Made by a program: the position numbers and the translations under genes
Assembly: GCA_036768485.1 (NCBI GenBank)
Contig: JAVLUZ010000583.1
Span: 420,501 to 484,500 of the forward strand
Length of the DNA stretch: 64,000 bases
Origin: Mermis nigrescens
Lineage: Eukaryota > Nematoda > Enoplea > Mermithida > Mermithidae
Direction: 5' to 3'
In this document: positions 16,101 through 50,823 of the stretch, in pieces
How the letters are laid out: each line of letters opens with the position of its first letter
Numbering within the stretch: position 1 is the first letter of the stretch
The notes under the pieces: model-generated
Seen by the model: the letters and a program-made list of their open reading frames with translations, nothing else
Databases searched by the model: none
Told to the model about the DNA's origin: nothing

Positions 16101-19100
16101 CGGGGTAGAAATAATTAATTTTCATGAACGTTGGCTAAAATTTTAGCATTTTTTTACCATTTTGACAATTTTGGCAAAAAATTTTATAATTCTAAGCAAA
16201 CATTTTGAGTGTAAAGTAAAATTCGAGAGTTGTGATAAAAATATTCGGGTTTCTGGTCAAATTAGCCAGCGGAGCTTTATTTTTTTAAATTTACATAGAA
16301 GCTATTGGAATTGCGTCAAAACACAGATTTAAGCTTCTTCTGACAAAATCTTTAGGCTTTTTACACAAATTTGAAATTTTAACATGAACTCTAACTTTTA
16401 ACCAAAACTTTGGGAGGTTCTGGCAGGAAATTTTGATTTTCGCAGAAAAAAGTTGCATTTTTAGCCAAAATTTTTGAATTTCAGATGAAAATTTTGGAGA
16501 TTGTAGATCGAATTACGGCGGATTTTATAAATATTTTTCAAACTATGTAGGGCCAAACTTTCGAAGTTGAAAATTTTTGAAGATTTTTCTAAAAGCTTGG
16601 AGAATACTGACTAAAATGTCTATGATTTCAACAAATTGACATAGATTAAAAAGCAGAAATAAAATATTATACACATAGGCAAGTAAATTGGAGGAATTAA
16701 TAGAAAAACCGCCAAAAAATTTACTTTTCGGCAAAACTCTAGCCTTGACCGGCTCAACCTGGCCGGCGGAATCTTTTCCCAAACCGCTTCCAACCACGTA
16801 GCCCATTTTGGCCATTAATTTGGACCCAATGCCCTTAAAAATAGATTAAAAACAATAGAAAAATAAGAAAATGAAAACAAAAATGAAATATTGTAGGTAT
16901 ATTATATATATATATATATGTAATATGACAGAAAAAATATAATTAAAAAGAATAAAATATACCTAAAAATTGAGTAAAAAATAAAAATGGAAAATAAATT
17001 ATAAAATATAATAAAATAAAAAATGATAATATAAAAATATCAAAAAATAAAACTAAACACATTATGGTAATAATAGACTAGCATACTGTGGATACATATA
17101 GTATACTGTAGATTTGCTATTCATGCGGTCACCTAACGAGGATACTGTAAGTCATAAATACGTGTCATTTTTAATACAGTATAGTAATATGGACGAAACT
17201 AATATTAGACGGGGAGCAATAAAGCGCAAACCTTACTGATTTTTAATCGATCAATTTCTCTTTTTATTAAACGGTTTATAATTCCATTTTAGACCTTTTT
17301 ACCTTTAATCATTTTTTCAAGATTTTTTAACTTTTACAATTTTCTTATTTTTTTAGGAATTTATTGCTTTTAATTAAATTTTGATTTTTTTCTTACCTTT
17401 TAGAACTTATTTATTCATTTTGTTTTGTTATTATTTTTTGACTTTTTATTCGTACTTTCGTATGACTTTCCCAAGTGCCCAAATCATTATGAACCCAGGC
17501 CCTCTGATGCACTTGACTAAATTCGCCATCGGCTAAACTGGTTGAGGGACCTGCTGAGCCGAATTGAACTTGGCACGATGACTCACCCGATTCACCGACT
17601 AAGTCCGTTTCGACTGAAAAGAGGACACATATGTATATATGAATTAAAATCTACAGTAATAACATAAAATAAATAAATAAATAAATATAATGAATAAAAA
17701 TACATAATAAATGGATAATAAATAAATAATAAATAAATGATAAATAAAAATGTATAATAAATAAATATTGAATATTGATTAAATAGATAAATAAAGTAAT
17801 AAATAAATAAATAAATATGATAAATATAAATACATAATTAATAAATAATGAATTAATAAATAATGAATTAATAAATAATGAATAAATGAATAAATGAATA
17901 AATAAATAAACAAATAAATAAATAAATAAAATAAGGGAATAAATAAAAAATAAACAAATAAAAAAATACATAAATGAATGAATAAAAAATTAATTAATTA
18001 ATCAAATCGACCGGTATATATAACTCTACAAACATGAATCATGCAAAAAATTAAACGACAGACTCAAATTTAGTCCAATAAATCAAAAGAACCAATGTAT
18101 CCCACCATACTTGGCATGACCCAAATTCTGAAAGGGCAAATGGGTAAAGGAATTAGGGGTTCAAAAAATTTTAAAGGTATAAAAGTATCGAAAAATTAAT
18201 CATCATGAGCAAAAAATCGCAAGAAAATTTTTCAAAAAAATCCAATTTTAAGGAGCTTTCACGGATTTTGGAGTTTTTGTGGATTGTGAGAGGATTCCAG
18301 ACCCTCAAACCCCAAAGCTCGCGTACAATCAGGTTTTCGAGCAGGAAATTTTTGAAATTTTCGATGCAAAAATTTTTTGAAATTTTTTAAGTAAAAAACA
18401 ATGCGGAATTTCAAGAAAAAGAGACATTTATTGAATATTCATAAATAAAAAAATAAATACCCAAATATCAATTTTGTGTAAAAAAACTTCCATTCAAAAG
18501 AATTAGGTAATGAATCGTGTACAATATTTCGTTTGCTTTCGACATGGGAAATTCTACAAATTTGAATTCTTTATTGATTGCGCCTTGAAAAAGCAGAGTC
18601 TTACACATGTACATAAGTATCTTTACAGAAATTCTTTATAAATTTCATTTAAGAAAATTTCATTTGAACAAATTCCAAATTTGTCACTCGAATCAAATAA
18701 AACTTGAATTTATATGAGATTTTCAAAATTAAATTACATAATTTCAAACGAAGGATAAAAGTAACAAAATATAAATAACTATACAATCCATGCATATAAC
18801 AGGGGGTGGGGGTCCCCACCCCACCCAAGGGCGGACGTCCCCCCTTCCCCAAAGCCGGAAAATTTTCGACCTCCCCCCATTTTTGGAAAAAGTGAATTTT
18901 TTGCCGTTTTTAGGCGTTTTTTGGCCAAAAATTAGAGGTCATGTACCCCCTCCCAAAAGAAAATGACCGAGACCCCTCCTTTCCACAAAGTTCAAGCTGT
19001 TACATGTATGATACAATCAGTCAACCCAGAGGAACAGGTTTAATCAACTTGCCTCAGATTTCAACGCCAGGTCACAAATCGCAATTTTATGTATTTGAAT

Positions 19101-31999: not shown

Positions 32000-33210
32000 C
32001 ACCATTTTTTTCCCAGCGATTTGGTTGACATTATAGACCAAACCCAAAATTTTTTTCCACTTTTTCCGACTTTTTTCCACAGGTCTAAAAACGTTCAAAA
32101 TAGAGCGCCTGTGTTGAAAAATCAGTGTATTTAAGTGGAAAATTTCATGTATGTACACGTGCAATAGCGGTGTTTGATGCACTTTTTCTATAAAAATTTC
32201 GCGCTCTACAAGAATATCACGATCAGTAACGTTATTTATGTTGAAACTTGAATTTCCTTCCTTCAGTAAAGCATTTTAGCCAATTCTGAAGTCGTTTTTG
32301 ACAATTAAAACTATAATTTATCAAATGGCGCGAAGCGCTAGTAAATTTTGAAATTTTAGCTCTCTAAATCATTTTTGCATTTCAAAAACTGTGCAGAAGG
32401 TAAGGATTTTCAATCGTAGTGGAGTTCTAGGACCAGATTATCGATAAAAAATGCTGCAATTGGCGCCAGCGGCTTAAACATAAATAACAAGTAAGAATTA
32501 AATCAAGCGCCGAAAATTTTTTGTAGTTTCACGTCTCTGAAACGCATTTTTGCATTACAAAAACTAACCGAATCCGTGCAGAAGATAAGGATTTTCAATC
32601 GTAGTAAAGTTCTAGATCAAATTTTCGATAAAAATGCTGCAGCTGACGCGGCACGGCTCAAATATTAATAACAAGAATTAAATCAATTCCGCGCGAAGCG
32701 CGAAAAATGTTTGTAGTTTCACTTCTCTAAAATGCACTTTTTGCATTAAAAACTAACTGAATCCGTGCAGAAAATAAGGATTTTCAATCGTAGTAAAGTT
32801 CTAGATCAAATTGTCGATAAAAATGCTGCAGTTGACGCAGCGCGGCTCAAATATTAATAACAAAAAGAATTAAATCAATTCGAAAAATTTTTGTAGTTTC
32901 ACTCCTCTAAAACGCATTTTTGCATTACAAAAACTAACTGAATCCGTGCAGAAGATAAGGATTTTCAATCGTAGTGAAGTTCTAGACCAGATTGTCGATA
33001 AAAATGCTGCAATTGATGCGGCGCGGCTTAAGGATTACTAAAGAGTAAGAATTTAATCAATTGCGCCGAAAAATTTTTGAAGTTTTAACTCTCTAAAACG
33101 CATTTTTAACATTACAAAAAGTTTCCACAAATGCCAACCAAGCCCAAAAATTTTTTTCCATTTCCCAAAATTTTGGTTGACTAATAGACCAAAAAGTGGA
33201 AAAAACGGTG
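32000..33210. mobile_element. hAT-like MITE, CACCGT family, copy B
   Basis: 1211 bp, ends CACCATTTTTTTCCC and GGAAAAAACGGTG, perfect 8-bp duplication TTTGCAAA (31992-31999, 33211-33218). It has more of the roughly 200-bp internal subrepeats than copy A (about four versus two), so internal copy number varies between family members. Confidence 0.93.
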
Positions 33211-33708
33211 TTTGCAAACGTCTATGAAACTGATAAAAACAATAAGACGGTGTGTAAAGCTATGTATTTCTGCACTTTGTGATATTAAGTGAATAAATAA
33301 ATGAATGAATGAATGATTTACTACCAGGGTTGGCAAGGCTGGGTTTTTTGAACTTGGGTTTTTTTGGTTTTTTGTGGGTTTTTTGGGTGCAAGAAATCGT
33401 TGGGTTTTGGGCTTTTTGGGTTTTTTATCCACAGGTTAAGAATTTATTTGTATAATGGAATTAAATACTGTGTATTGTCAATGTTTTTTGTATCATGGTT
33501 GTTCCTTTTACAATTGCTTGCGATGCACGAGGTTAAGTGTCCATCCATTCTCATCCTCTCCTCCTTCCTGTTGCTGTTTTTCTCCTATAGTATATACTTT
33601 TCAAATGAGAAAAACCGCCCAATAAAGGCTATGTGGCAATGTGGCATGGATTTTTCTACTAATATGGCAAATTTTTTTGTTTTTTTTTCTTGAAGCAGAG
33701 CAGAATTT

Positions 33709-34983
33709 ATGAAGAAATTTCAATATTATGCATTTAAAAAATTGCTCTGCCCAATTTTTCATTCTGTTCACACAGCATGGATTGTGCTTGTGAATGTTTA
33801 TTACCCAAGTTATCAAGGTACGACGAAACCGTTGAAGTGGTTCAGAAGATTTATAATTTTTGCGGTTCTTCCTATAATTTGGCAGTCAACGACGAAAATG
33901 CTGATGTTCGGCGGCATGCAATTGATCGTCTTTGTATTACTAATTGGATCGATGCAAGTTGACGTCATACTACCGGACGAACTGTGCTCAAAATTTTGCC
34001 GTTTATACAGCATCCATTGCGGAAGATGTTCGATGCGAAACGACTTTAGCCCCAACGAATTTTTTTCGCATATGGTTGCGAACTTTCGTTTATTATTGCT
34101 AAGTGGCGACGTCGAAACGAACCCTGGTCCTAAACGTCAGACAAAAGATTCGACTAGTTCGCAGTCGAAAGACATTGACAAGAGTCAACTCATTACAGCA
34201 CCCTGCGTTTGTTGTCGTTCGAATGTCGGCGACGGCGACTTGGCTTTTCAGTGCGGTTATTGTGGTTCGTGGGAGCACGCTGCATGTGCTTCCATCTCGG
34301 ACAACTTTCATAACGAATTCGCCGCCTTGTCGTCTGATGCCTCTAAACTATTCATTTATTCTTGCACGCAATGCTACGTTCGCAGCGTTCCTACACTCGC
34401 TTTAAACTCCTATCGATTGCTGCAGAAGCCGAACTTTGCCCCTTTGCCCGCTGAGCCTGTGGATTTTGCTCAATCATCAAACATTTCTGCAGCCGCCCCT
34501 CATCGTCCTACGTTCGCAGGTGGACCTCCTTTTCGCGGCGGGCCTGTTTGTGGCCCATCGGTGTTGGACTCGGTTCGTATAGCCGTTGACCTTCAAGAAC
34601 GTTCTACCAGGGCTGTTGGTTTTAACATCAATGAAGTAAAAACCGGCACCGCTTCTGATCAAAAAAAGTTTGATCTAGCCGAAGTTCGTCGCTTGGCGGA
34701 TGACCATGATTTTGATCCCGACGACATTACCGATTGCTATTGTTTGGGACGGGGCGATATACCTAATCGAAAATACGAACGCTTGCTCAAAATACAATTT
34801 TCCTCAGCACACGCCCGCAACTTGTGGTTGCGAGCTTTCCAGTCGCCTAAACCTGCGGCGGGCGACAGATGGGATCCTACACGAATCTGGTTTCGACGCG
34901 ATTTGTCCGATCAGGAGCGTCAGGACGCTTACGAGGAGCGTCAGTTGCGTCGAACGTCCGGCGCTGATGCTAACGAGCGTTGA
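33709..34983 (+). CDS. CR1-like ORF1: hydrophobic N-terminus, 2A motif, PHD-like finger
   Basis: An intact 424-codon frame from ATG. Residues about 45-85 are strongly hydrophobic (two potential membrane or signal segments, including MQLIVFVLLIGSM). Residues 132-141 read SGDVETNPGP, a complete 2A ribosome-skipping signature preceded by RLLLL. After it comes a P/S/K-rich linker, then a C4HC3 PHD-like finger (about 166-223; CVCC, CGYC, WEHAAC, CTQC) and a basic C-terminal half that could bind nucleic acid. By established knowledge, 2A sites make the ribosome release the upstream chain and continue, giving two proteins. That this copy is translated is inference; it is intact although ORF2 is broken. 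Confidence 0.85.
   Translation: MKKFQYYAFKKLLCPIFHSVHTAWIVLVNVYYPSYQGTTKPLKWFRRFIIFAVLPIIWQSTTKMLMFGGMQLIVFVLLIGSMQVDVILPDELCSKFCRLYSIHCGRCSMRNDFSPNEFFSHMVANFRLLLLSGDVETNPGPKRQTKDSTSSQSKDIDKSQLITAPCVCCRSNVGDGDLAFQCGYCGSWEHAACASISDNFHNEFAALSSDASKLFIYSCTQCYVRSVPTLALNSYRLLQKPNFAPLPAEPVDFAQSSNISAAAPHRPTFAGGPPFRGGPVCGPSVLDSVRIAVDLQERSTRAVGFNINEVKTGTASDQKKFDLAEVRRLADDHDFDPDDITDCYCLGRGDIPNRKYERLLKIQFSSAHARNLWLRAFQSPKPAAGDRWDPTRIWFRRDLSDQERQDAYEERQLRRTSGADANER
34072..34131 (+). other. 2A-like translational recoding signal
   Basis: Encodes ANFRLLLLSGDVETNPGP, matching the D-V/I-E-x-N-P-G-P core and the usual hydrophobic lead-in of 2A sequences. The predicted break is between Gly140 and Pro141 of ORF1. 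2A sequences have been reported in CR1-type and trypanosome L1Tc elements as well as in viruses. Confidence 0.88.
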
Positions 34984-35049
34984 TCGTCGTGGAGGAATAA
35001 TTCGCGCATAATTTGAGGATGCGGGCCCCCTGGCGGACGGCAGTCAGTT

Positions 35050-37816
35050 TTGCGTTGTTGTTTATTTAATGCATGTAGTATACTAAATAAACTAAATGAG
35101 TTTGATGCATTTTTAACAGCAAATGATTTCGATATCGTGTGTGTGTGTGAATCCTGGTTAACTCCTAGTGTATCTAATGGCTTACTTTGCAATTTAAACC
35201 GTTTTAATGTGTATCGTTCCGATAGGATCAATCGAAAAGGTGGAGGTGTTTTTATTCCTTCAAAAAGTACTTTAAAATCCTACTTGCCGAAAGTACCGGA
35301 AAATCTTTTCAGTGAAGAAATAGTTATTGTTGATTTCATTGGCGTAAGCTCCAAGATTCGTGTGCTACTTTTTTACAGGGCGCCGGATTATGATTTCTCC
35401 CACATGAGAATGCTTTGCCGTGTTATAGAATGGGCCTCTTAGATACAGTATCCTTTTGTCATATTAGGTGATTTAAATTTTCCTAATGTAGACTGGTCTA
35501 GTTTTATTCTACCTTCGAGTCCTATTAACTGATCTTTTTGCGAGTGTATGCTTTCTCTATCTTTTAGTCAAAAAGTTTCTGAACCAACACAGGGTATGCA
35601 TATTTTAGATGTTATTTTTGATGCCCATTCTACCGAAAACGTTGAAGTCAACCCACCTTTTTCTACTAGTGATCACTCGGTTGTTACTTTTTCTCTTAAA
35701 TGTTCTATCTTGGAAGAAAAAAGTTCAGCTAAACTTAATTTTCGCAGAGCAAACTATGATCAGATTGAATTATTTTTGTCCGCAATTTTGTGGCCTGACA
35801 TTTTTTCGGATTGCGTTACTTGTGATGATTTCTACAACAAATTTTTGTCTGTTATAAATCCTTTAATTTCCCAGCATGTTCCAAAAATTGAAGCTAAACC
35901 TGCAACTGTGAAAAGATACCCAATGAACATAAGAAAGCTGGTTGCTAAAAAACTGAGGCTGTGGCATGTTTATAAACAGAGAAAAACGCCTGAATCTAAA
36001 GCTGTTTATAATAACTGTGCAAAGTTATTAAAGGCCGAAACCTATAAATTTAACTCTTCCAAAGAGGATAAACTTATTAAATCTGGAAATTTGAATTCTT
36101 GTTATAATTTTGTTAATTCTCGTATTAGTGGTGAAAGAACTATTCCAATTTTAACTGATGGCGATCGTGTGATTGCTTCTACTGACAAAGATAAGGCAAA
36201 CGTTTTTAGCACACTTTTTGCTTCAGTCTTTAGTGTTCCTACGCAAACGAATTTTGGTCTTATTAATGCTTGTGCACAGCCAAAGTTATCAAACATTCGT
36301 TTTTCTGATGATGTCGTTTTTTCTGCTATACGAAGATTAAACCATCATTATCGATTGGCCCTGACGGACTTTGCGCATTTTTTGTGAAAAAACTTGCTTT
36401 TGTACTTACCCAGCCCTTAACCACTATTTTTGAAATATCTTTCAAAACCCATTGTATTCCTGCACTGTGGCGCACCGCTAATGTTGTTCCTGTGTATAAA
36501 AAGGGCGACCGGAGTGATGCTAAAAATTACAGGCCGATATCGTTATGTTGTATTACGTGTAAGATCATGGAATCTATAATTAACAGTACGATGCAAGCAC
36601 ATTTACGTGAGAATAATTTGATCTCCTCCGGTCAGTTTGGTTTCCAAAAGGGTAAATCGTGTGAATTGCAATTACTAAAGTGCAAAAATGAATGGACTAA
36701 ATTAATTGATGAAAAACACTGTTGATGTTATCTACATTGATTTTTCTAAAGCTTTCGACACTGTAGTTCACCGTAAATTAATTTATAAACTGGAAACTTT
36801 TGGATTTTCTGGAGATTTATTGAGTTGGTTAACTTGTTTTTTGAGCGATAGGACTCAAAGGGTTGTTATTAACGGTCAGTTTTTGAGCGAAAAATCTGTC
36901 ACTAGCGGTGTTCCTCAGGGCAGTATACTTGGCCCGATTCTTTTTGTTTTATTCATAAATGACATTAGCGACCGCTTAAATAGCAAAGTTTGCCTTTTTG
37001 CCGATGACGTCAAGCTTTATAATTTATCTAGCAATCACACCCAACTTCAAGATGATATCGCTAAACTCGTAGTCTGGTCCAAGGATTGGCAGTTAAAAAT
37101 TGCTACTGAAAAATGCTACGTGTTATATCTAGGTTTTGGAAATCCCAAGCATTCTTATAGAATTTCTGACCTGACTGTAGAACAGAGTGTAAATTCTGTA
37201 AAGGATTTGGGTGTTTACGTATCAAGTAAGCTTGATTTTAATTTCCACTATAATGATATAACGCGTAGAGCTTATGCTAGGGCTATGCTAATATCGAAAT
37301 CATTTGCTTCTAAAAATAAACTAAATATGTCTAGGGCTTTTACTGTTTACGTCAGACCACTTCTTGAGTATTGTAGCACTGTTTGGAATCCATACCGTAA
37401 GACCCATGTTTCAATGATCGAAAATGTTCAAAGGAAATTTACACGTAAAATTATTGGATTTCGGGGACTTTCTTATGCTGAAAGACTCAGTTCCTTAGAA
37501 TTGGATAGCCTGGAGATTCGCAGATTGCGTAGTGATCTGTGTATGATGTATCAAATATTGAGTGGTACATAGATGCGTTTTGCAGCAAGCCGGCTTTTTT
37601 ACTTTTTGTGAAAACAGCACGCGTGCTCAAAATTCAATGAAATGTGAATGCACTCCTTTTCGGCTAGATGTTCGTGGGTATGATTTATCCAATAGGTGGA
37701 TTCACGTATGGAATTCTCTCCCTGAAGCTGTTGTAAGATCTCCTAGTGTTGCTTCCCTCCGTGAAAAGTTGAAAAAAGTTGATCCAACGGGGTATTTGCT
37801 AGGGGGCGTGTTCTAA
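35050..37816 (+). pseudogene. CR1-like ORF2 (APE endonuclease and reverse transcriptase), broken
   Basis: The endonuclease part shows VCESWL, GDLNFPNVDW and STSDHSVV; the RT part shows YRPISLCC, VPQGSILGPILF and the catalytic FADD box near 37005. It is broken by an in-frame TAG at 35440-35442, a TGA at 35530-35532, and frameshifts near 36350, 36715 and 37565. No ATG is seen at its start; the frame opens just after ORF1 with no long spacer. The damage makes this copy incapable of autonomous retrotransposition. Confidence 0.88.
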
Positions 37817-38269
37817 GTGCATAATTTATTTAGCCTGCGCGCCTACTTTCGTCTTTTGCACTAATCTCGTATAAATGTACTTTAATTAATAATTTCTTGC
37901 TTTTAGAATATGTGATTTTGTATGATGATTCATGTCGAATGTTTATTTATAATTGTATTTCATTGTATATTAATGTTTCTTTTCTTATTGTGTTCTTTTT
38001 TTGTGCGACGAAAATAAAATATTTGTATTATGACCAATTTTGTTGTTGAATTTTGTGTATTAGCTGAATAAAGTTGTTGTTTACTTGTTTTGTTTTGTGT
38101 CTTGAAGCTGTTGAAATATTCTCAGCTACTATCTATAGCTCGAGCTAGAATTTTTATAAAAAAAACCCATAAAAAACCCTTAAAAACCCAAAAAAACCCA
38201 AAAAACCCAAAAACCTAAAATTCGAAATTTTCAAATCTGGGTTTTTTCCATCCCTGTTTACTACGGAAG

Positions 38270-41250
38270 CACGAAACTTATTTGGATATAGTTATAACTT
38301 AACACTTAGGTCTTAACTATGAACGAAATAAATTCCTAATGTGAAAGATCTCTATGTATAAAATTATATACAACTAACTCGTAGTACTGTGAATAAGTTA
38401 GGGGAACTTCACTTTCTGTTAAATACTGCAAAATTCGATATATTATTTTTTTGTGAAACCTGGTTAAATGAATCTATTTCCGACAGTCTATTATGTCCGT
38501 TAAAAAATTATATTATTCTCCGATCAGATCGTAAGAATAAGCGGGGAGGTGGAGTTTTAATTTTTGCTAAACCTCATCTTTATGCTCGATGCGTTAAAGT
38601 TCCTGCTTCTCTGTTTGTGTCTGATACTTTAGTAGTTGAAATTTTAAAAGGTGGAGATGTTATAAGATGTTTGTTAGTTTATAGACCTCCTCAGTATGAT
38701 TTTGATACTGCACTTCGGATATGTAATTTAATTGAATGGGCTACTAATAGTTGTCATCCCGTTATTATAGTAGGGGATCTAAATTTGCCTAAAATTGATT
38801 GGTTTCATGGTACTTTTACATTTAATCCATTAAACGAATTATTTTTTGATTACTTATCAGCTAGTGGTCTGCAACAGTTAGTTAAAGAAAATACTCACGA
38901 TAATACTTTGATTGATGTAGTATTTGCTGCATATAACGTTTTTAATATCCAGGTTCTTCCTCCTTTTTCAACAAGCGACCATAATTCGATTTCTTTTGAA
39001 ATTTTAACTAGAACTTTTCAAGATGGAGATAAACCTAGCTTAAATTTCAATAAAGCGGACTACGAGAGTATAGCTACTTTTTTATCCTGTTTCTTGGCCT
39101 GACATTTTTTCTACATGCTCAACAGTTAATGACATGTATAATGTTTTTTTAAGTATATTAAATCCTCTTATTTTTAGTTTTGTACCTACTTTTAGGACTA
39201 AATTAAAATTTAAATACCCTAAAAGCTTACATAAATTATTTCTTAAAAAACGTTCTCTATGGGATAAGTATAAAAGGTGTAAAACTCCAGGAACTAAAGT
39301 TAAATATCGAAATCATTGTAAGGCTCTACGTAGAACTATTCATAATTATTTCTCTTCTCAAGAAAACAAATTGCTCAAGAATAATAATCCTAAAGCTTTC
39401 TATACTTTTGTAAATAATAGGTTAAAAAGTCGCAGTGAAATTCCTCCTCTAACATTTTCTGATAATAATGTTATAACCGATTCATTACGCAAGGCTAACA
39501 TTTTTAATGATTATTTCGCTTCAGTGTTTTCTAGTGACATTACTAACGCGAATTTTCTTTTTCAGAAGCGCTGTGATTTTTCGCTTTCTGACATTATTTT
39601 TAGTGAGGATCGCGTATTGGAAGCCATTAACCATCTAAATACGTCTATTGCAGTTGGCCCCGATGGCATATGTAATCTTTTTATTAAAAAATTGTCGTTT
39701 CAAATGATAAAGCCGTTAGTTAGTATTTTCACTGTATCTTTTCTGTCTGGAAATATTCCCGAGCTTTGGAGCATGGCACATGTTATTCCAATATTAAAAA
39801 AGGGGGATCCAGCATTAGTGGATAATTACAGGCCCGTTTCTCTTTGTTGTTCTATTGCCAAAATTATGGAAAGAATTATTAATAGTCAATTGTTAGACTT
39901 TCTTAAGGTTAATAAACTAATATCTCCTTTTCAATTTGGTTTTCAAAAGAATAAATCTTGTGAAACACAATTGTTAAAGTGTAAATTTTCATGGATTCAG
40001 TCGTTAGCTAAAAAAGAAACTGTTGATATAATATATTTAGATTTCTCTAAAGCTTTTGATAAAGTAAATATGGAAAAACTTCTTATTAAGTTAAACGGAT
40101 ATGGAATAAACGGTAATTTGTATGCATGGTTAAAGGCCTATTTGTTTAATCGTTCCCAATGTGTTCGCGTTAATCAGTCTTTTTCAGATTATGTGCCTGT
40201 TACCAGCGGTGTCGTCCAAGGAAGTGTCCTTGGACCTACGCTCTTTTCGATTTTTATAAATGATATATGTGATAATATTTGTAGTACGGTTTATATGTTC
40301 GCAGATGATATCAAAATTTTCAATATTAGTCGTAACTGTAAATTATTACAGTCTGATTTAGATAAGATTATTGACTGGGCAATTGCATGGGATTTACCTA
40401 TTTCTCGAACCAAAAGTCAAGTTCTATATTTGGGTAATAATAATCAAAAAGCTGTTTATAGACTAAATGGGGAAATTATTTCTAGTGATCCGTTTGTCCG
40501 TGATTTAGGAGTTTTGATTCCTCGAAATTTAAAATTTAAGGAACATTATAATTCTTTGATTAAAAAAGCTTTCTTTAGATGTATTTTAATACGCAAATCA
40601 TTTTTTTCGCGTGATAAAGGTAATCTTGTTAAAGCTTATAGTTGTTATGTTAGACCTTTATTAGAGTATTGTTGCAGTGTATGGAACCCCTCTTATCTTA
40701 AGGATATAGATAGATTGGAAGCTGTTCAACGTAGATTCACTAAATATATTTTTGGCTATAATAATATTTTTTCTTACGAGGATCGTTTAACACAACTTAA
40801 ATTGTGCAGACTTGAATTAAGACGCTTGCAGATTTGTCTGTGTATGATGTATCAAATTATTTGTCATAAATCATGTTTGGAAGCTGATGATTTTTTTGTA
40901 TTTAATCATAATATTACCCGTAGCATTAATAGATTTAAATTAGTCATACCTACTGTACATTCTAATTTAGAAAAGTTTGATTTCTTTTACAAATACATCG
41001 CAGTTTGGAACGATCTTCCTGACTTCATTGTTTCTTCCCCTAACCTAAACATATTTAAATCTAGATTAGCAAACTTTGATTTATCTAGATATCTTGTGGG
41101 AGCGCGCGTAAAACTTGTCATTCCATTGACTCGCATGTCCCTTTACTAATTCGTAATTGCATTTATTATATATCTTGTCATTTCGTATTTTAACTGTTGG
41201 TATTAGTAATAAAATTTTCTTTCTTACAGTAAGTACAGTAAGAAGCTTAA
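38270..41250 (+). mobile_element. CR1-like retrotransposon, 5'-truncated copy
   Basis: Begins inside the endonuclease domain with no ORF1, the usual result of incomplete reverse transcription. About 14 bp separate it from the duplication of the preceding hAT-like element. The 3' end lies somewhere after 41150, before the TTCTCCTG words of the outer element. Confidence 0.75.
38389..41149 (+). pseudogene. CR1-like ORF2, second subfamily, one frameshift
   Basis: Endonuclease frame 38389-39102 (FFCETWL, GDLNLPKIDW, STSDHNSISF) and RT frame 39134-41149 (NYRPVSLCC, FQFGFQKNKSCE, IYLDFSKAFDKV, VVQGSVLGPTLF, MFADDIKIF). They are separated by a one-base deletion near 39095 where the related copy reads LWPDIF. 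The 671-codon RT frame ends with a long C-terminal domain. Sequence identity to the first copy is only moderate, so this is another subfamily. Codon usage is more AT-rich than the first copy. Confidence 0.88.
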
Positions 41251-50194: not shown

Positions 50195-50200
50195 TTTATT
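50195..50200 (-). terminator. Poly(A) signal overlapping the stop codon
   Basis: The last codons read CAA TAA ATC, so AATAAA spans the stop codon itself. No second AATAAA is visible in the next tens of bases, so either this signal gives a very short 3' UTR or another variant is used. Confidence 0.45.
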
Positions 50201-50823
50201 GTCCAATCGGGTGGCGATAAGCGCCGCCGTTCTCCAACGTCGGCAACGGACTCTCGACGGTGAGCACGCCGTCCACCGACAGCGTGCTCGTGATCGCCTC
50301 GGGGTTCGTGCCCCGAGGCAACATGAACTCTTGGTTGTACTCCCGGTAGACGGTGCGCTGCGGTGACTTTTCCTCGTGCCGGGCATGCACCAGCAGGCGA
50401 TTGTCGACCGTTTTGACGGTGACCTCCTCCGGCTGATACTGCGACACGTCGAAGCGCAGACGCAGCGTTTTGCCGTCGCTCTCCTCGCGAATCAACGGCG
50501 ATTTGATGTTCTCCAAATACGGGTCGTAGTGCTTGACGCCGACGGTTGCCGTCGGCAACGTTGTCGTCAACGGCGGCGGCAAGCCGCCGCCGCTGCCGCC
50601 CAGCGTCGACGACCGAGTCGTCGTCGAATGGCTGCTCGACGACGTCGACATGGACGTTTGGCCGACGCCCGTCGAGCTGATGCCGCCGACGCCGACGCTC
50701 GGAAACGTCGGATGGATCGTCGACGCCGTCGTCGAGTCGAAACGATCGTCGAACGGCGATGCGCGCTGCTTGGGCGTGTAGGTTTCGAATTCGCGACGCA
50801 AGCGGCTCATCTCTTCTTCGACC
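50196..50823 (-). CDS. hsp-25: hsp-25-like exon 2 (linker and alpha-crystallin domain)
   Basis: Acceptor AAATTTTAG at 50824, first base completes an Arg codon, then VEEEMSRLRREFE. The ATG at 50810 is internal, because the four residues before it and the upstream exon give a continuous charged helix. Confidence 0.93.

Follow-up and report, generated by a model that had tools for sequence, protein, structure and literature searches.

Sequences of the 2A type are reportedly found in APE-type non-LTR retrotransposons, with CR1 among the clades and with skipping in the examples tested (Odon et al. 2013, Mol Biol Evol 30:1955). A 2A in the LINE reading frame is likewise reported for L1Tc of Trypanosoma cruzi. 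We know of no agreed answer as to why LINEs carry a 2A at the start of ORF1.

Several further systems come close to the locus described here. In SpNLR2A of sea-urchin NLR host genes, a 2A of 26 residues itself acts as a signal sequence (PMC4981915). CR1 elements of type III encode a PHD and an RRM in ORF1, followed by an ORF2 with endonuclease and reverse transcriptase (PMC4120745). The esterase-type ORF1 of ZfL2-1 is a LINE ORF1 protein proposed to act at membranes, which have been proposed to matter in non-LTR retrotransposition (PMC3905857). With regard to spliced leaders (SL), traces have been suggested at flatworm LTR/LINE loci (PMC12582326, PMC5832876), SL-bearing transcripts overlap a LINE/CR1 repeat in Heterodera glycines (PMC6362198), and dinoflagellates possess SL-tagged retrogenes (PMC12014239).

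The locus analysed here lies in a stretch of 64,000 nucleotides from the nematode Mermis nigrescens (the window, C536:420501-484500), and the genome searched comprised 524 Mb in 860 contigs. Like the elements of Odon et al. and L1Tc, it has a 2A inside a LINE reading frame; it differs from them in its nematode host, in its 5' SL and apparently in its leader, which has a signal-like segment of its own at the N-terminus. A 2A in CR1 elements is already known, and what appears new here is the leader design together with the SL 5' ends. With SpNLR2A the locus shares an N-terminal hydrophobic sequence before the 2A and the same DVETNPGP core type (PMC4981915). However, the SpNLR2A sequence has 26 residues and belongs to NLR genes, whereas the LINE ORF1 leader has about 80 residues and its signal-like part lies far from the skip site; neither the leader of the window nor that of copy L010 is a 2A of about 26 residues that is the signal itself. 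The order of a PHD and an RRM-like domain, with endonuclease and reverse transcriptase in ORF2, is that of type III CR1 elements, whose description makes no mention of a 2A, a leader or a signal peptide in the portion of text available (PMC4120745). ZfL2-1 offers a LINE ORF1 protein with a proposed membrane role; there, membrane contact is made via a protein domain, whereas in the window family it would be made via a co-translational leader (PMC3905857). Finally, the flatworm, H. glycines and dinoflagellate cases resemble ours as reverse-transcribed copies of trans-spliced RNA, but as far as the available accounts go ours differs from them in having several SL variants at one junction of one CR1 family, some of which exactly match SL RNA genes of the same genome.

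Anatomy of the element and of its ORF1

A sequence-only reading of the window had reported a complete 2A core, SGDVETNPGP, at residues 132-141, with a hydrophobic leader of about 140 residues before it and a PHD-like C4HC3 finger after it, in an ORF1 taken to be intact. The 424-codon ATG frame, at 33709-34983(+), places this core at 34102-34131, and the frame together with a six-frame scan confirmed it; the hydrophobic leader and the finger were also borne out. The length of the leader and the intactness of ORF1 had to be revised, as follows from the features below.

33709-33795 (+): host flank, open in frame by accident and outside the element (residues 1-29); upstream of the junction the copies diverge, the identical duplicate L009 excepted
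33796-33817 (+): captured SL exon (residues 30-36); exons of this type are found in SL RNA genes of the genome, and other SL variants stand at the same junction of other copies
33818-33897 (+): element 5' end and 5'UTR, free of ATG (about residues 37-63), from the common start of the copies and an ATG scan
33898-34128 (+): leader from M64 to the Gly of NPG, with a signal-peptide-like N-terminal segment and a second hydrophobic stretch that continues into the 2A, from alignment to Met1 of P0002 and hydropathy
34102-34131 (+): SGDVETNPGP, the core of the 2A/StopGo site, at which the skip is predicted to fall between 34128 and 34129; of the LLLLSG class in PMC12846837
34204-34374 (+): C4HC3 PHD-like finger, from Pfam, PDB profile and Foldseek
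34609-34899 (+): RRM-like domain, from the modelled beta-alpha-beta-beta-alpha-beta order and Foldseek
34981-34983 (+): early stop of the window copy; where the ORF1 end is complete, other copies have their stop at the position equivalent to 35014-35016
35019-38029 (+): ORF2 (endonuclease and reverse transcriptase, broken) and 3' end, from Pfam and the copy alignment

The genome was searched with the element (99 of 1071 candidates scored, 113 matching stretches listed), and 20 loci were fetched with their flanks for a comparison of borders. In the 19 loci other than the identical duplicate L009, the match begins at 33793-33860 in 12 and later in seven (L015, L018, L019, L023-L026), and the sequences upstream of the element start are unrelated to each other. 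The CR1 element begins at about 33818. L009 itself (C64:17875500-17883000) matches the window without a single difference over 6,031 bases that take in the flank; L013 and L014 form another identical pair and, like L009, are haplotigs or recent duplications.

Downstream of the SL, the ATG scan places the first AUG at 33898 (M64). Met1 of P0002, a metagenome protein with 39% identity over 67% of the query, aligned to M64. By inspection, P0002 has no 5-residue word in common with the query 2A, so the motif is not what brought this protein in. The leader thus measures 77 aa in the window, compared to 81 in P0002 and 83 in copy L010; the remainder of the roughly 140 residues consists of host flank (1-29), SL (30-36) and 5'UTR (about 37-63). 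The ORF1 of the window also lacks 18 nt just before the 2A, where the 18 other non-duplicate copies are longer by 18 or 19 nt (in one of them as two pieces), and ends early, as nine copies (L010, L011, L015, L018-L022 and L026) continue for 11 codons past its TGA at 34981; it can therefore not be called intact. In L010, the ORF2 ATG lies 2 nt past the ORF1 stop, and the window sequence has equal spacing.

As regards the surroundings, inverted GGGTTTTTT-type arms at 33345-33426 and 38160-38227, about 4.8 kb apart, flank the CR1 copy, which by its sequence context may sit within another repeat. Tandem-like repeats upstream of it (32000-33210) are also found near other copies (e.g. L013, L018, L023, L025) and reflect either a target preference or merely a common repeat. 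Directly downstream, two open frames (38389-41149) encode the endonuclease and reverse transcriptase of another CR1-like ORF2, distinct from the first; no ORF1 of at least 100 aa was found between the first element and this ORF2. By eye, a 204-aa frame at 50196-50810 (-) resembles a small heat-shock protein.

The 2A motif and its sequence class

Within the six frames of the window, SGDVETNPGP of the 33709-34983 frame is the sole match to D(V/I)ExNPGP, one further bare NPGP being present at 17492-17503. A degenerate nucleotide pattern of the motif gave 58 matches in the 524 Mb genome and none with the reversed control, which shows that the motif is not due to chance. Counted from the list, 48 of these have the spelling of the window's family (duplicates included) and ten have three other spellings (7, 2 and 1). 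The latter read GDVELNPGP (L076), GDVERNPGP (L077/L080) and GDVESNPGP (L078/L079), and a PHD-like finger after the 2A is also seen in L076 and L078/L079.

The ORF1 of the window contains in frame the core pattern (D/G/C/N)(V/I)ExNPGP, and LLLL directly before SGDVETNPGP gives it the upstream context of the LLLLSG class. A 2026 StopGo survey names this class, states that StopGo needs hydrophobic residues ahead of the core, and reports activity in vitro for a motif similar to the LLLLSG-type motif of the window (PMC12846837). The window copy is without six codons somewhat upstream of LLLLSG. Judged by its sequence, the 2A of the window belongs to a class with activity shown in other hosts and sits in a CR1-type ORF1. 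The family's 2A is likely to have StopGo activity, given that LLLLSG contexts form a named class and that the similar motif was active in vitro (PMC12846837).

Downstream domains and element class

The PHD-like finger matched Pfam at E=0.0076, which is under the curated cut-off, and a PDB profile of MLL1 PHD3 at E=4e-4, Pygopus matches being weaker; in Foldseek, a Pygopus PHD (E=9.5e-4) was the sole match under 0.001. The RRM-like domain was matched by Foldseek to RRMs from E=0.004 and to LINE-1 ORF1p from E=0.011, its strand-helix blocks having a pLDDT of 58-89 in a structure model of modest confidence (mean pLDDT of 55, replacing a first model at 40). For ORF2, Pfam yielded RVT_1 (E=6.5e-25) and Exo_endo_phos (E=0.0052, under the cut-off in this broken copy), and several copies extend 3' into TATTTG/TATTG-type repeats. 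The locus thus combines a PHD and an RRM-like domain in ORF1 with endonuclease and reverse transcriptase in ORF2, as in type III CR1 elements, the CR1 label resting on this layout and on the sequence-only reading.

An alignment of four families, in which two of the four rows are short and most other columns differ, retained 17 invariant columns, made up of all eight positions of GDVE-NPGP, seven of the eight in C4HC3 and a further two. GDVE-NPGP and C4HC3 features were likewise invariant in a five-row alignment. A search of a phage collection gave no match, and viral contigs searched with P0001 and with alignment A3 gave 3 and 32 pattern stretches, with no relative among them.

Captured spliced leaders at CR1 5' ends

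The junction in the window reads GTTTATTACCCAAGTTATCAAG followed immediately by GTACGACG, i.e. the SL at 33796-33817 and then the element start. Of the last 18 nt, 17 agree with an SL RNA exon (by eye, 20 of all 22), and similar yet differing stretches of about 22 bases occupy the same junction of other copies. The SL pattern with up to 2 mismatches was found at 25 places, window and duplicate included, against one in the control. A later search with 2 mismatches gave 11 matches against 71 in the control, and only its three exact matches were given weight.

SL RNA gene candidates of the same genome number nine, with four main exon types (L043, L045, L071-L075, L081 and L083). L043 and L045 resemble SL RNA genes in having an exon GGTTTTTACCCAAGTTATCAAG, a GTAA donor and an Sm-like AGTTTTTG. 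Five further loci were recovered by similarity (L071-L075), with the exon GGTTTTTACCCAAGTTATAAAG in four and GGTTTTTACCCATACGTTGAAG in one; L081 and L083 add the exon GGTTTTTACCCGAAATTTTAAAG and a one-base variant of it, and GGTTTTTACCCGAAATTTTAAAG is exactly the sequence at the L020 junction. Identification as SL RNA rests on exon, donor, Sm-like site and conservation; the folds of two candidates were not more stable than shuffled sequences (z of -1.56 and -0.76). Neither this genome nor the control genomes gave a match in an Rfam SL1 search. The close sequence GGTTTTTACCCAGTATCTCAAG stands in a published list of nematode SLs (PMC3795323), which by itself makes a nematode genome likely.

When 5' ends were scored against the three exons known by then, 10 of 21 reached the threshold of at least 13 of 18 positions and none of 21 did at a control offset; the other 11 scored under 13, L060 reaching 12. 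The 21 remained from 25 loci given, four of which had no usable 5' end; of 20 further places, 12 were fetched. L009, L014 (the twin of L013) and the seven truncated copies did not enter the test. The window is where the pattern was first seen, and L051 was found by its own SL, without which the figure becomes 9 of 20. Overall, SL exons are present at the CR1 5' ends of the window (33796-33817), L010, L017, L020, L051 and L054-L058, the match at the L017 junction being exact over 18 nt. The exons are cut at the donor and stand at the same junction in independent insertions, as in retrocopies of SL trans-spliced RNA. These sequences therefore point to SL capture at CR1 5' ends by retrocopying of trans-spliced RNA. 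A literature search specifically for genomic SL at CR1 insertions found none, which proves little given its open-access coverage.

Other CR1-like families of the same genome also bear SL exons at their 5' ends (L031/L037/L047, L033/L034/L035/L048, L039/L040, L041/L082 and L046). In L034 and L039, two SL-like stretches lie in tandem at the 5' end, at about base 1480-1560 of the SL-oriented strand. This arrangement reads as a second trans-splicing onto the transcript of an SL-tagged copy, and the DNA copy of an SL, ending in AAG, could by its sequence serve as the next trans-splice acceptor.

Leaders among relatives

Three protein searches yielded 101 relatives; with P0001 replaced by the M64 product, 102 proteins were scored. 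An expanded 2A core is present in 89 of the 102, a retention that is partly ascertainment because the later searches used alignments containing the core. Clustering of the leaders gave 62 representatives. We called signal-like segments by hydropathy as an N-terminal hydrophobic 11-mer, a proxy only, and the start codons of the relatives are predicted ones. In leaders of 60-130 residues, such an 11-mer occurred in 24 of 42 against 6.2 by shuffling. At the cut-off used, 32 of the 62 representatives had the segment and 30 did not; it is thus not universal among 2A leaders.

Among the 32 leaders bearing it, it ends 7-13 residues before the G/P junction in three and at least 52 residues before it in 29, with none between. 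Shuffling predicts 2.4 (up to 13 residues), 1.4 (14-45) and 6.6 (over 45), so that segments ending more than 45 residues before the junction are found in 29 of 62 leaders against 6.6, an excess seen at all 15 settings. The further idea that signal-to-2A distances avoid 14-51 residues was dropped, as none against 1.4 expected at 14-45 is not significant; with 9-residue hydropathy windows, one or two leaders fall within the gap. In the window, the signal-like segment ends 58 residues before the skip site, and in L010 64. In six relatives from the top of one search (P0002, P0003, P0004, P0008, P0009 and P0010), as well as in family 1, the junction falls at residue 71-88 and the segment is present throughout. 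L077, of another family in the same genome, has by our own count a Met 81 residues before the junction and a hydrophobic start, its frame being broken soon after the 2A.

Thirteen proteins are without the core. Seven of them (P0012-P0018) start 14-32 residues before the first PHD Cys, two have core variants (DVQLNPGP in P0029 and NPDP in P0007), and the PHD pattern was not found in the other four. Similarly, the SL-tagged families named above start ORF1 shortly before the PHD-like finger, no 2A being seen in the stretches read. By sequence, leader and 2A together look like a separable module. A skip would give ORF1p roughly the N-terminus of these 2A-less relatives with their 14-32 residues ahead of the PHD, and the gap from Pro to PHD is often short among relatives.

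Decay and divergence of the copies

ORF2 of the window differs in frame from the majority of the aligned copies at three places (36332, 36712 and 37566-37569) and by eye has two in-frame stops where other copies read through, in agreement with the two stops and three frameshifts reported before. The sequence-only reading had considered selection, chance and supply of ORF1 in trans as possible causes of the contrast to ORF1. We compared the window with 18 non-duplicate copies. Singletons in the leader comprised 15 nonsynonymous and 8 synonymous changes (5 and 2 among the shared changes), in the 2A block 6 and 1 (0 and 1), and in the ORF1 body 59 and 23 with 4 stops (23 and 12 with 1 stop). Changes among the copies are thus near the neutral expectation, with no purifying selection visible, and we rejected an ORF1 kept intact under selection on these grounds. 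As most copies are dead, the near-neutral pattern neither supports nor refutes function. Moreover, ORF1 holds one of six frame-breaking lesions against 1.7 expected from its length, by our own arithmetic. With neutral changes and such a share of lesions, the contrast between the two frames needs no special cause.

It had also been reasoned that NPGP residues drifting freely among related copies would speak against a functional 2A. By eye, 15 of 18 non-duplicate full-length loci retain an intact core, which L013, L015 and L023 have lost, but low divergence alone could yield this retention. The T run between M64 and the 2A has 7 Ts in the window and in 10 of 18 copies and 5, 6 or 8 in the others, in which the leader frame is consequently broken. 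Matches of 50-54% identity proved to belong to the family itself, as copies with a broken frame.

Discussion

Our best explanation, which we put at a probability of roughly 0.45, is that the window holds a dead CR1-type copy reaching the 5' end of its element, and that active members undergo SL trans-splicing, docking at the ER by means of the leader and then a 2A skip. The mRNA of such members would be trans-spliced to the host SL, and ORF1 would be translated from M64 as one frame comprising a leader of about 80 residues, the 2A/StopGo site and the PHD-RRM ORF1 protein (ORF1p). The N-terminus of the leader would leave the ribosome before the 2A is made and bring the ribosome and the LINE mRNA to the ER. 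The 2A would then release the leader, while the ribosome continues and makes an ORF1p that begins with proline and carries no targeting signal. ORF1p would thereby start beside the membrane and beside its own mRNA, which might be of use to the element in the assembly of the LINE RNP. The exit tunnel of the ribosome holds roughly 30-40 residues. A segment ending at least 52 residues before the skip site should therefore be outside the tunnel and visible to SRP at the time of skipping, and this favours docking before skipping. The sequences establish the anatomy, the start site, the recurrence of this architecture in many relatives and the capture of SLs, whereas StopGo activity, ER targeting, the sequence in which they occur and their benefit to the element are inferred.

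The sequence-only reading had instead suggested dual targeting, with skipped ORF1p being cytosolic, unskipped leader-ORF1p secretory and both products useful. Its premise of a hydrophobic leader before the 2A holds, and such targeting has been demonstrated for SpNLR2A in HeLa and plant cells (PMC4981915); three of the 62 leaders indeed have their sole N-terminal segment right beside the 2A, as in SpNLR2A. However, this model is drawn from a system in which the 2A itself is the signal, whereas a segment 58-64 residues before the junction implies for the window family that targeting should precede skipping, and the efficient skipping expected of this sequence class would leave little fused product. 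We thus regard dual targeting as unlikely. A leader devoid of any targeting role, with its hydrophobic stretch serving as tunnel context for the 2A and the 2A trimming the extension so that ORF1p starts near the PHD, would agree with the hydrophobic residues that StopGo requires before the core (PMC12846837), with the frequently short gap from Pro to PHD and with the 30 of 62 leaders that have no N-terminal segment. Yet the segment, where it occurs, lies apart from the region in contact with the tunnel and is in excess over shuffled leaders, which leaves this explanation with a real if rather doubtful standing.

Near-neutral changes, the 18-nt deletion, the early stop and the broken ORF2 would all suit a relic, with 2A and leader now idle here, possibly throughout the present-day family, and ORF1 mostly open by chance. 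This holds for the window copy but not for the wider group, given the three other 2A spellings in the genome (10 of 58 matches) and a core that is invariant between families, and as an account of the whole it appears improbable. The docking of the leader ahead of the skip remains our preferred reading. That it extends to a CR1-type LINE group of a 'dock, then skip' design, which would reach membranes by a way distinct from that of the esterase domain and whose 5' end is renewed in each round by the host SL in this genome, is a possibility that we advance tentatively.

Taken together, the first ATG of a LINE frame can sit in host flank ahead of a captured SL, and the length of a leader should thus be derived from a comparison of copies. 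An SL tag indicates that reverse transcription of the inserted copy got as far as the 5' end of the trans-spliced RNA. If true, docking followed by skipping would tie LINE protein synthesis to the secretory machinery.
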